A stretch of 40,561 nt of DNA, from positions 1 through 40,561 of the forward strand of contig JALEIY010000116.1 in the NCBI GenBank assembly GCA_022769785.1, in the 5' to 3' direction. Origin of the DNA: Eubacterium sp. Lineage in GTDB: Bacteria; Bacillota; Clostridia; Lachnospirales; Lachnospiraceae. The notes under the pieces were generated by a model. It did no database searches. It was not told the DNA's origin and saw nothing but the letters and a program-made list of their open reading frames with translations. Numbering within the stretch: position 1 is the stretch's first letter; each line of letters begins with the position of its first letter. The position numbers and the translations under genes are program-made. Shown here in pieces: positions 30,780-35,895 of this stretch.

Positions 30780-31973
30780 TTATAAGTCTTCTTTAATGGT
30801 ATGGTACTGTTCGTACTCTGCCAGACGTTTCTTGATTCGGTCATGAGGGTCAAGGATGGAGCTGATGGATGCCTCGTGATTCATGGAATCAATCAGAAGG
30901 GCAATATACTTGGAAATATCACAGTTTACATACCATGGACGGGAGAGAAGCTCCGGTGTCTGGTAGGTGGAGTTAGTTGTAATAACCTTGTAAATCAGGC
31001 CTTCTTCATGAGCCTTGTCAAAAGAATCAAGACCGTTGGTAAACATACCAAAGGTAGAGATGCAGAAGACACGTTTTGCACCGCGTCTCTTTAACTCTCT
31101 GGCAACATCCAGCATACTTTCTCCGGAAGAAATCATGTCATCGATAATCAGTACGTCTTTATCAACAACGGAATCTCCGAGGAACTCATGAGCAACGATA
31201 GGATTGCGTCCGTCAACAATGACAGAATAATCACGACGTTTGTAGAACATTCCGATATCGACTTCCAGCACATTGGCAAAATAAATAGCTCTTTGCATCG
31301 CACCTTCATCCGGGCTGATAACCATCATATGCTCACGGTCAATCTGCAAATCATCCGTGGATCGAAGCAGTGCCTTAACAAACTGGTAAGTCGGCATGAT
31401 ATTGTCAAAACCTTTTAAAGGAATCGCATTCTGTACACGAGGGTCATGGGCATCAAAGGTCAGTACGTTGTCAACACCCATATTGGACAGCTCCTGTAAA
31501 GCAAACGCACAGTCCAAAGACTCTCTGGAATTTCTTTTGTGCTGACGGCTTTCATACAGGAACGGCATGATGACGGTGATGCTCTTCGGTTTACCGGAAG
31601 CAGCGCCAATCAGACGTTTGATATCGCCGTAAATATCATCAGGGGACATATGGTTTTTGTGGCCGCAGACGGTGTATTCCAGACTGTAATTTAACACGTC
31701 GGCCAGAATATACATATCAACACCGCGAACGGAATCGGAAATCAGAGCTTTTGCTTCGCCGGTTCCAAAACGGGAACAGGTACTCGGAATAATGTAAGTG
31801 TCTTTTTCATAACCGTGAAAAACCACATTAGACCTGTGACTGGAATCGCGCTCCTTTCGCCAGTTTACGATATACTGGTCAATCTTTTTGCCGAGCTCTG
31901 CACAGCTGGGGTGTACAATGATTCCAAGTCTTCCCACAGGAACGGTTAAAAATTTACTGTCATCTGGCTTCAT
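30780..31973 (-). CDS. prs: Ribose-phosphate pyrophosphokinase (extended form)
   Basis: FDAHDPRVQN, VISPDEGAMQRAI, VLIIDDMISSGESMLD PRPP-binding loop. Confidence 0.9.
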   Translation of the reverse strand: MKPDDSKFLTVPVGRLGIIVHPSCAELGKKIDQYIVNWRKERDSSHRSNVVFHGYEKDTYIIPSTCSRFGTGEAKALISDSVRGVDMYILADVLNYSLEYTVCGHKNHMSPDDIYGDIKRLIGAASGKPKSITVIMPFLYESRQHKRNSRESLDCAFALQELSNMGVDNVLTFDAHDPRVQNAIPLKGFDNIMPTYQFVKALLRSTDDLQIDREHMMVISPDEGAMQRAIYFANVLEVDIGMFYKRRDYSVIVDGRNPIVAHEFLGDSVVDKDVLIIDDMISSGESMLDVARELKRRGAKRVFCISTFGMFTNGLDSFDKAHEEGLIYKVITTNSTYQTPELLSRPWYVNCDISKYIALLIDSMNHEASISSILDPHDRIKKRLAEYEQYHTIKEDL

Positions 31974-32047
31974 GGTTTGTCTCCTTTTATCTTCATTAAT
32001 TAAAAATGTAATTTCAGTGTAAATTCTTTATAACATTCCCCTTATGA

Positions 32048-33034
32048 TTAGTCAAGGGGAGAAAAAGCCTTTTTGATGCGAATATCTTCCCCGTAAATAT
32101 GAAAAAGAGTATAGGCTTCAATGATTCTGGAAAAAACTCTCTCCGTGTAAGTGCGGCTGATTTGCTTTAATGAGAGATTGGTACTGATAATGGTAGATTT
32201 CTTGTGGAGCATCCGTTCATTAATGCACAAAAAAAGCTGTGAATTAATAAAAGCGTTGTTAAGCTCCGTACCAAGGTCATCAATAATCAGCAAATCGCAG
32301 TCAAGAAGAAAGGACAGAGTCTCTTTATTATCCTCTTCCCGTCGGAACGTATAGTTCGCGAGCTGGTCAAAAAACTGGTACGCAGTCTGATAGACCACAC
32401 TTTTTTCCTGCTTTAGCAGCGCATCCGCTATACAGTGAGTCAGAAACGTTTTTCCCACACCGGCACTGCCGTAAATCAGGAGATTTTGTCCCGGCTCACA
32501 GTCAAAATGGTCAATAAATGCATGGCTCAGAGCGAGGATATCAAGAATATTATCCCGAGGAGAAAGCGTTTCCCCCGCAGGTACTTCCGTAGAGTAATAA
32601 TCTGTACGGAAGGTGGAAAAATTCTCCCGTGCCGTAATATCAAGAAGATTCGACTGGGCATAAAGGACATCAAGAATCTGGCGGGTAAAGCAGGAACACT
32701 TCTGTGAGCCGATATACCCCGTATCCTTGCATTGACTGCAGGAATAAATAGGCTCCAGATAATCTGCCGGATAACCGTGGGAGGTCAGAAGCTGTATCTT
32801 TCTGGCGGAAAGTCCGGCAATTTTGTCTCCGAGATTCTCACCCGAATCCGGTTGGAAAAGCCGTTTCCGGGCCTCCTCCATGGAAATATGAGCAATCGTT
32901 TCATCGATATGCGCGATATCAGGAATGGCAGCGAACACTTCATCACGCCGCCGCTGCTGTTCCATATAGTGATCTCTGCGGAGCTGTCCGTAGCGATTCA
33001 TAATTTCTGTATATTGCTGCATGGAAAGGGACAT
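32048..33034 (-). CDS. DnaC/DnaI-like replicative helicase loader (AAA+)
   Basis: LLIYGSAGVGKTFLTHCIADALL, LLIIDDLGTE; zinc-binding CSQCKDTGYIGSQKCSC. Confidence 0.92.
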   Translation of the reverse strand: MSLSMQQYTEIMNRYGQLRRDHYMEQQRRRDEVFAAIPDIAHIDETIAHISMEEARKRLFQPDSGENLGDKIAGLSARKIQLLTSHGYPADYLEPIYSCSQCKDTGYIGSQKCSCFTRQILDVLYAQSNLLDITARENFSTFRTDYYSTEVPAGETLSPRDNILDILALSHAFIDHFDCEPGQNLLIYGSAGVGKTFLTHCIADALLKQEKSVVYQTAYQFFDQLANYTFRREEDNKETLSFLLDCDLLIIDDLGTELNNAFINSQLFLCINERMLHKKSTIISTNLSLKQISRTYTERVFSRIIEAYTLFHIYGEDIRIKKAFSPLD

Positions 33035-33036
33035 AA

Positions 33037-34068
33037 TTACCTCCTGTTTTTATCCAGCAGACGAGACTCCAGATTGTCGTAATCATAAGAGCGCTGGTCA
33101 AAATTGTGGAAAGCATTTGTACTTTTTGGCTGGGATGGAGCTGCACCGCCCTGGGACTTGGCCTGTCCCGCCGCGGAAGCCGCCTGGTGATGCTTCTGGT
33201 CCAAAGAGCGGATGTCTGCCACATTGCGAACCCCCAGCTTTTTCCATTCCTCCAGAATCCGATTGGCATAAGGAAAGCTGGCCTGATGTGTGGCCAGAAG
33301 GGTACGGTTGCAGGCCTCAATAATAATATCCGTATCAAAGCCTAAAGAATTCCATTTCATAATGTAGTCAATCTCGGAAGGACCGGGATTACGCCCGGCA
33401 ATGCCAAAGGCCTTCATGACCGGAAAAACATTTTTGGAATAAAGAGAAGCCGCATCCCTTGCCTTGGGTACGCTGTCGATACCCTGCTGAAACCAGTTGA
33501 TGGCAACGCTTTCCATATAGCGCACACTTTTTTTCCCTTTGGTGACACAATATTCAATAAGATATTCCAGCAAATCCGAAGAAAAATGAAGGCTGTCGCT
33601 GATATAAAACAGGCTGTTTAAATCCGAAACAGAAAGAGGACGGCCAATATAGGTTTCTGCCATAAAAACCGTCTGCTCCAAATCCGTGCCTTTGATGGAT
33701 TTTTCCATATCTGCTGCGCTGTGGGATGTTTTTTCCGGAATGGCAGGAGAAGTCATGCAGGTTGCCGCGGATTCCGCAGGAGCGTCGGCGGCAGCAAAAG
33801 AAGCCCCGGGGGTTTCTTCTTCGCCAAAATCCAGAAGCCCTTCCTTTTTCCAGTAATTCAGAGCCCGGAGGACATCTTTTCTGGTAAGCTCCAGGGTGTC
33901 TGCCAGCTCTTCGGCCTGAATCGGACGGTTTTCACCTGCCAGCCGCTGTATCAATAAATATATTTTAACGTATTCGCCGTCTGCCTTTATCATGTGATGG
34001 TCGATGAACTCATTGGGCAGTATGGTTATGTTATGTAAAAGATTGTGTTTTAATGTGATGTTATCCAT
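33037..34068 (-). CDS. DnaD-domain replication initiation protein
   Basis: Adjacent to dnaC-like gene; YIGRPLSVSDLNSLFYISDSLHFSSDLLEYLIEYC DnaD domain. Confidence 0.9.
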   Translation of the reverse strand: MDNITLKHNLLHNITILPNEFIDHHMIKADGEYVKIYLLIQRLAGENRPIQAEELADTLELTRKDVLRALNYWKKEGLLDFGEEETPGASFAAADAPAESAATCMTSPAIPEKTSHSAADMEKSIKGTDLEQTVFMAETYIGRPLSVSDLNSLFYISDSLHFSSDLLEYLIEYCVTKGKKSVRYMESVAINWFQQGIDSVPKARDAASLYSKNVFPVMKAFGIAGRNPGPSEIDYIMKWNSLGFDTDIIIEACNRTLLATHQASFPYANRILEEWKKLGVRNVADIRSLDQKHHQAASAAGQAKSQGGAAPSQPKSTNAFHNFDQRSYDYDNLESRLLDKNRR

Positions 34069-34174
34069 GGTATTCGCCCCTTTATTTTTTTCAATGCGTT
34101 CAGGTATGTCATGTAAAGATCTGTTTAATCATAACATAATAAAATAAAAGTGCCAACGAATATTTTCTTCCTTC

Positions 34175-34454
34175 TTATTCACAGAAACGGAAATTCTGTG
34201 GATAAAAATGTGGATAAGTATGGGATAGAGATGGGACAGGTCATGTGAATAAAAATGTGGATAATGTGGATAACTTTGTGGATAGATTTGACTTACTACT
34301 ACAAAAAGGGGATTTTTTTTAAAAAACCGGGTGTGTCCTGCAAGATATAGACCAGATTTGGTGGTGAAAAAAAGTGGACAACTTGTATATATCCATTGAA
34401 AAACCCAAAATGAGAGAAAATTATGGGGAAAAAATTTGTGGATAATGTGGATAA
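34175..34454. promoter_or_regulatory. DnaA-box cluster with DnaA-trio-like tract
   Basis: TTATTCACA 34175; TGTGGATAA at 34197, 34209, 34256, 34265, 34437, 34446; TGTGAATAA 34244; TGTGGATAG 34277; weaker AGTGGACAA 34373; TTACTACTAC 34293-34302. Confidence 0.85.
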
Positions 34455-34515
34455 CTAAAAAACAGCCGGTCAGAGTAGGATACCCTGTCCGGCAGTGGAT
34501 GATATATGGAAATGA

Positions 34516-35895
34516 TTAACGGGCCAGAAGCTCTTCTCCGATGGTAACCACATCTCCGGCTCCCATGGTGATTAGAAGGTCATGTCCCTTCAGACTGGAT
34601 GAGAGGAACTCTTCAATCTCGGCAAAGGAAGGAAAATAATGGACATCGGTACCGGCCTCCTTCAGAAGACGGTAAATATCCATGGAAGAAACCTCTCCCG
34701 TATCGGCCTCTCTTGCGGCATAGATATCCGCCAGAACCACGTGGTCAGCGAGAGTCAGCACCTCGGCAAACTGAGAGAGAAATGCCTTGGTTCTTGTGTA
34801 AGTATGCGGCTGGAAAACAACCCAGAGCTCATCGTGAGGATATTCCCTTGCCGCTGTGAGGGTAGCGCGGATTTCTGTCGGATGATGTGCATAGTCATCG
34901 ATAACCACAACATCGCCAAGATTGCCCTTATACTCAAAACGACGATGGGTTCCGGTAAAGGAAAGGAGTCCGGAAAGAATCTGCTCCATCGGAAGTCCCA
35001 GGCTCTGCGCACAGGCAATGGCTGCCAGAGAGTTCATGATGTTGTGGCGGCCCTTGACACTGAGCTTAACGCTTCCGGCGGATTCTCCGTGAATCAGGAG
35101 GGTATAAGAGCCGTTTCCCTGTTCGTCAAATGCCACGTCGGCAGCAGAATAATCATTATCCGCGCCGAAACCGAAAGTAACGGACTTCTGGACAAGACCG
35201 GATAAAATCTCATCCGTATGCGGCATATCCCCGTTAATAATAATAAGACCGTCTTTTGCAGTCTGGGAGGCAAAAACATGGAAGGAATGCTTGATATCCT
35301 CAAGATCCTTAAAGAAATCCATATGGTCTTCTTCAATATTTAATATGATAGAATACATCGGATAAAATTCCAGGAAGCTGTTGGTATATTCACAGGCTTC
35401 AGTCAGGAATACATCCGAACGGCCAACGCGGATATTTCCCTGAATACGGTCGAGGATACCACCGACGCTGACGGTAGGGTCCAGTTCGCCCTGAAGAAGA
35501 ATGTGCGTCAGCATGGAGGTAGTAGTCGTTTTTCCGTGGGTGCCTGCAACAGCAATAGAATGAAGATAGTTTGCCATAATCTGTCCGAGCAGCGCAGCTC
35601 TTGTCATCATCGGAATTCCTTTGTTTTTCGCAGCGGCAAATTCCTCGTTGTCCTCGTGGATGGCAGCGGTATAGACAACCACATCAATATCATCAGTAAT
35701 GTTTTCCGCTTTTTGTCCGATGGCAATCTTTGCACCGTCTGCGGCGAGATGTTCAGTGATGTCAGATTTTTTCATGTCAGAACCGGATACGGTAAAACTG
35801 CGGTCCAGTAAAATCTCTGCAAGTCCGCTCATGCTGATGCCGCCAATGCCGATAAAATGAATGTGCACCGGCTTTTGAAAATCAATAATGTACAT
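34516..35895 (-). CDS. murC: UDP-N-acetylmuramate--L-alanine ligase
   Basis: HFIGIGGISMSGLAEILL, VAGTHGKTTTTSM, DDYAHHPTEI. Confidence 0.97.
   Translation of the reverse strand: MYIIDFQKPVHIHFIGIGGISMSGLAEILLDRSFTVSGSDMKKSDITEHLAADGAKIAIGQKAENITDDIDVVVYTAAIHEDNEEFAAAKNKGIPMMTRAALLGQIMANYLHSIAVAGTHGKTTTTSMLTHILLQGELDPTVSVGGILDRIQGNIRVGRSDVFLTEACEYTNSFLEFYPMYSIILNIEEDHMDFFKDLEDIKHSFHVFASQTAKDGLIIINGDMPHTDEILSGLVQKSVTFGFGADNDYSAADVAFDEQGNGSYTLLIHGESAGSVKLSVKGRHNIMNSLAAIACAQSLGLPMEQILSGLLSFTGTHRRFEYKGNLGDVVVIDDYAHHPTEIRATLTAAREYPHDELWVVFQPHTYTRTKAFLSQFAEVLTLADHVVLADIYAAREADTGEVSSMDIYRLLKEAGTDVHYFPSFAEIEEFLSSSLKGHDLLITMGAGDVVTIGEELLAR

Follow-up and report, generated by a model that had tools for sequence, protein, structure and literature searches.

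Between murC and dnaD, the 40,561-nucleotide contig of Eubacterium sp. analysed here (JALEIY010000116.1, hereafter the window) carries a dense array of DnaA boxes ahead of genes for a DnaD-like primosome protein and a helicase loader. What DnaA might do at such a site is the question we address. A first-pass annotation, made from the sequence alone, left three options: that the array is the chromosomal origin or part of a bipartite one, that it titrates DnaA, or that it gives DnaA control over the helicase-loader genes.

Composition and setting of the array

The murC-dnaD intergenic region (34069-34515) contains nine DnaA boxes and one weak box, all present at the positions given in the first-pass annotation (Table 1). 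Eight of the nine match TTATNCACA, and together they span about 280 bp. TTATNCACA occurs 148 times in the whole 2.33-Mb draft genome (225 contigs), so about 0.018 matches are expected per 280 bp, against the eight observed (P about 2e-19). The exact box TTATCCACA is the highest-affinity DnaA site, and DnaA also acts as a transcription factor in E. coli.

Table 1. Features of the murC-dnaD-dnaC locus, in window coordinates
Feature	Position	Strand	Basis or remark
murC	34516..35895	-	Pfam; upstream neighbour of dnaD, same direction
murC-proximal tandem pair TTATCCACATTATCCACA	34437..34454	-	exact
Weak box TTGTCCACT	34373..34381	-	73 bp past first box
Trio-like tract TTACTACTAC	34293..34302	+	spacer ATTTGAC; adjoining box faces away
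Box CTATCCACA	34277	-	sequence match
Middle block CTATCCACA, TTATCCACA, TTATCCACA, TTATTCACA	34244..34285	-	steps of 12, 9 and 12 bp
Box TTATTCACA	34244	-	sequence match
Exact boxes TTATCCACA	34197, 34209, 34256, 34265, 34437, 34446	-	sequence match
Promoter-proximal pair TTATCCACATTTTTATCCACA	34197..34217	-	starts 83 and 71 nt upstream of -10 hexamer
Single box TTATTCACA, opposite in orientation to the rest	34175..34183	+	sequence match
Predicted sigma-A-type promoter, TTGGCA-17-TATGAT	34128..34156	-	sequence; TG before -10
dnaD-like primosome gene (343 aa)	33037..34068	-	DnaB_2/PF07261
Helicase-loader gene, DnaC/DnaI type (328 aa)	32048..33034	-	PF01695

The two tandem pairs noted earlier at 34256 and 34437 are real, and the 20-mers at these two positions are identical. 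The first box of the window array lies 61 nt behind the murC stop codon, and a 9-bp-spaced pair directly behind murC is found again in most relatives. The 12/9 triple of the middle block is retained in the three closest relatives (L010-L012) and is found again ahead of hpf, on contig C205 of the window's genome. At the place of the weak box (34373), L010 and L012 have TTGTCCACA or TTATCCACA at equal spacing. A whole-genome search for close same-strand box pairs returned the murC-dnaD site, which had the most matches (more than oriC), oriC itself, the region ahead of hpf and, on a 4.4-kb contig, one weaker pair, and no other site.

Other clusters recur in the family. The one with the 12/9 triple upstream of hpf, the gene for a ribosome hibernation factor, lies at G000:C205:3230-3318 in the window's genome (L004, L007), and 10 of 20 other tandem-box sites collected from relatives also adjoin hpf (L192-L195, L202, L203, L205-L207, L210). 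In several Lachnospiraceae (L196-L198, L200, L209), a third recurrent cluster occupies the interval from mecA to an NlpC/P60 hydrolase gene; in it, a box is followed after about 53 bp by a tandem pair.

The genes prs, dnaC, dnaD and murC (30780-35895) form a block on the - strand that opposes the surrounding + strand genes and the positive GC skew. The earlier description of mostly + strand genes on both sides fits the surroundings of the block but not these four genes themselves. The nearest matches of the window's DnaD come from Eubacteriaceae bacterium CHKCI004, Eubacterium sp. An11 and Candidatus Anaerobutyricum stercoripullorum (63-67% identity), which makes a member of Lachnospiraceae near Anaerobutyricum the probable source. 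Agathobacter rectalis has the identical gene order, with prs behind and glgC-glgD-spoVG divergent, and the homologous pair in C. difficile is CD3653-CD3654, in the region of the replicative helicase gene (PMC5204125). Of nine relatives in which the position of dnaA is known, seven have dnaD on the lagging strand; G185 is an exception besides G072, and we therefore do not use a conserved head-on orientation of dnaD to replication as an argument.

Location of the replication origin

The remark that no dnaA or dnaN is visible beside the array was correct: dnaA was located on contig C217, in the order rpmH-dnaA-dnaN-recF-gyrB (rpmH read from sequence alone). The murC-dnaD site therefore lacks the adjacency to dnaA or dnaN expected of oriC. 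The oriC at dnaA is bipartite, with one box cluster ahead of dnaA and another in the dnaA-dnaN interval; the latter contains TTATACACA-GATTCCACA-CCCCC-(TAC)x5 followed by AT-rich DNA. This arrangement matches that of the basal unwinding system (BUS), which has been described in B. subtilis and is predicted in most bacteria (PMC8287927, PMC6669920). We scanned for this system, defined as a DnaA box, a GC-rich spacer and at least three DnaA-trios of the CTA type in the correct orientation. The scan recovered the oriC element as a positive control and found none at 34069-34515 or in L010-L012.

The first-pass annotation had also pointed to a DnaA-trio-like tract with the layout of an unwinding element. 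The sequence, TTACTACTAC, is present, but the layout is not: the adjoining box is reversed and there is no GC spacer. The tract is also missing from the three closest relatives, and we rejected it as an unwinding element. In B. subtilis, the element is inactivated by reversing box 6 or boxes 6/7 (PMC6669920).

GC skew was examined in relatives and in the window, the window's own genome being a draft. The skew of one relative with a complete genome (G271) switches sign at dnaA (position 1) and close to 1.7 Mb, whereas at its dnaD (3.11 Mb, 407 kb from dnaA) it is negative on both sides, with no flip. Skew in the window stays positive along its whole length, with its lowest values in the part that contains the inverted murC-dnaD-dnaC-prs block. 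Neither the window nor the 250 kb around the A. rectalis locus showed a flip.

Because oriC lies elsewhere, the trio is reversed and not part of a BUS, and the skew does not flip, we reject the origin option, including its bipartite version. That a second or bipartite origin fires at the array is extremely improbable, although the box density and the AT-rich spacer look origin-like and a 252-kb circular A. rectalis record bears the dnaD locus without dnaA. That record is a piece of chromosome that includes a Tn916-like element with a replication initiation factor of its own, and the exact boxes at its dnaD are down to two.

A plasmid search with the array region returned only two records, both chromosome-like. 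The circle mentioned above is NZ_CP143948.1 (A. rectalis DFI.5.28 "plasmid unnamed1"; L131-L135), which carries ribosomal protein genes, rpoBC, murC and dnaD-dnaC and appears to close at the Tn916-like element with its integrase, excisionase and replication factor. It is probably an assembly or recombination product; if real, it would place essential genes on a secondary circle. Another record (NZ_CP154629.1; L110), labelled Acetoanaerobium noterae plasmid pTPELB2, is chromosome-sized at 2.63 Mb, and its plasmid label is probably wrong.

Conservation in Lachnospirales and spacing to a predicted promoter

The first-pass annotation had proposed looking for conservation upstream of dnaD in relatives, and this conservation proved to be order-wide. 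At least one exact box lies between murC and dnaD in 70 of 78 Lachnospiraceae loci, at least four of the 78 being repeats of the same genome; for the remaining families of Lachnospirales the count is 19 of 26 loci. In the Lachnospiraceae loci, the murC-dnaD intergenic regions hold 184 exact boxes against 9 in 343 kb of flanks, or 8.5 per kb between the genes and 0.026 per kb in flanking DNA of the same loci. As the counts in this section take in related genomes, we attach no probability to them beyond this contrast with the flanks. Exact boxes occurred in 1 of 25 loci from other orders of Clostridia (L191, in the class list, belongs to Lachnospirales); most of the loci outside the order still have dnaD next to dnaC, without murC upstream of them. 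Boxes and an upstream murC being frequent within the order and not outside it, the unit murC-array-dnaD-dnaC is, as judged from these sequences, a Lachnospirales feature. Eight Lachnospiraceae loci have dnaD and no exact box, so any control through the array would be dispensable or replaced in some lineages.

The arrays follow common rules. Boxes lie on the dnaD strand in 174 cases and on the opposite strand in 5, and the commonest spacing of same-strand boxes is 9 bp (101 cases), then 12 (27), 21, 23 and 14. The first exact box begins 2-3 nt behind the murC stop codon in 50 of 65 loci. A short layout reads TTATCCACA-TTTTCCACA-n5-TTATCCACA; in a long layout another pair or triple follows, usually at a distance of 150-180 bp. 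The window array is of the long layout with extra boxes, and many relatives retain just two or three boxes.

The boxes are also linked to a promoter, as at DnaA-regulated promoters, through an extended -10 element and preferred distances. With the search pattern TGnTATAAT and one mismatch allowed, an extended -10 was found between the boxes and dnaD in 68 of 72 box-bearing loci, against 4.6 expected in shuffles, at a place comparable to that of the window's predicted promoter. The last exact box usually lies about 60-100 nt upstream of the -10, and its distances cluster at 61, 66-69, 76-79, 84-90 and 96-97, whereas those from box to dnaD start codon showed no periodicity and no preferred classes. 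We also considered helical phasing between array and promoter. Anchored on the pair, R was 0.72 at 10.5 bp; this was not reproduced with the last exact box as anchor, for which R was 0.19 at the helical period and 9 bp fitted better. The choice of anchor decides whether the distance classes look like 9-bp box registers or like helical turns, and we therefore claim neither helical phasing nor direct contact with RNA polymerase.

In the window, the core promoter is free of overlapping boxes. Since no box lies on the core promoter and the last one is usually some 60-100 nt upstream, DnaA may be a little more likely to act as an upstream regulator, either an activator or a roadblock to murC read-through, than as a steric repressor, on what is weak evidence. 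In the strict form of the roadblock, DnaA would stop or attenuate murC transcripts so that only the dedicated promoter feeds dnaD-dnaC. The placement of the first exact box directly after the murC stop in most loci and the single box orientation would suit this reading, and no intrinsic terminator was found between murC and dnaD in the window. It would, however, make the second block near the promoter superfluous, and in the window the first box is set well back from the murC stop; we regard it as improbable.

Probable DnaA control of dnaD-dnaC and known systems

Of the three options, DnaA control of the helicase-loader genes is the best supported, because of the order-wide conservation and the coupling to the promoter. 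The array is probably a cluster of DnaA boxes outside the origin that lets DnaA regulate the dnaD-dnaC operon and, as a side effect, titrates DnaA; its placement and conservation suggest that DnaA may control or sense the supply of its partner proteins. The DnaA of the window's genome has intact AAA+ and box-binding domains. It could bind along the array cooperatively, perhaps with a loop that joins the two blocks, and might then modulate dnaD-dnaC transcription from upstream in step with the level of free, active DnaA. A role of DnaA as a transcription factor is well established in B. subtilis (PMC4447404, PMC13220808). As DnaD of B. subtilis is an inhibitor of the cooperative binding of DnaA (PMC5295017), feedback is conceivable. 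In a more elaborate version, the Lachnospirales array would be a half-orisome-like sensor of DnaA activity: its DnaA-looped blocks would tie loader supply to the activity of the initiator, as a main control of initiation, and DnaD would close the feedback on the array itself. This version appears doubtful.

Each array would hold several DnaA molecules, from which some titration would follow. Titration may hold alongside operon control and is a likely by-product; as the main function it is a serious rival, even if an unlikely one. The array would then be chiefly a DnaA sink that keeps DnaA from oriC and delays initiation, like the B. subtilis clusters and E. coli datA, and its position at dnaD would be incidental. 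Its many boxes of exact consensus are consistent with a sink, as are the origin-side location in relatives (101 to 517 kb from dnaA in the eight with dnaA and dnaD on one contig) and the existence of conserved clusters at hpf and mecA-NlpC/P60; the joint deletion of the six such clusters of B. subtilis advances initiation (PMC5295017, PMC13220808). A pure sink, however, needs neither one orientation, nor 9-bp spacing, nor the same gene, nor a preferred promoter distance, and the arrays of two or three boxes in many relatives offer little capacity. Regulation of dnaD-dnaC by DnaA accordingly remains our preferred reading.

In a literature search that covered mainly open-access papers, we found no report on boxes at dnaD, in the murC-dnaD interval or in Lachnospiraceae. 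C. difficile lacks homologues of several well-known regulators of DnaA (PMC7561715). A DnaA array before the helicase-loader operon in a major order of gut bacteria would point to a concrete regulatory connection of initiator and loader that experiments can test.

The array shares features with several known systems. Like the bipartite oriC with BUS of Firmicutes it has clustered boxes in an AT-rich neighbourhood, but it lacks a correctly oriented trio/GC element, dnaA, dnaN and a skew switch. With E. coli datA and DARS it shares the status of a non-coding DnaA-box locus away from oriC; the layout differs. Where DnaA controls promoters in B. subtilis and E. coli (dnaA autoregulation, nrdAB), a replication gene likewise has a sigma-A/70 promoter preceded by boxes, whereas the target here would be the helicase-loader operon, for which the open-access literature searched gave no such case. 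With its nine boxes in 280 bp, the array also resembles the short non-origin regions with several boxes that are known from B. subtilis as oriC-proximal clusters outside oriC (Okumura et al. 2012, per PMC5295017 and PMC13220808). Both consist of several high-affinity boxes outside the origin of a Firmicute chromosome, and the array, to judge from relatives, probably shares the origin-side position as well. Unlike the B. subtilis clusters, the array described here is tied to dnaD-dnaC order-wide and has one orientation, 9-bp tandem pairs and preferred promoter distances. Clusters outside oriC are as such already known; what is new is the conservation of the murC-array-dnaD-dnaC layout.
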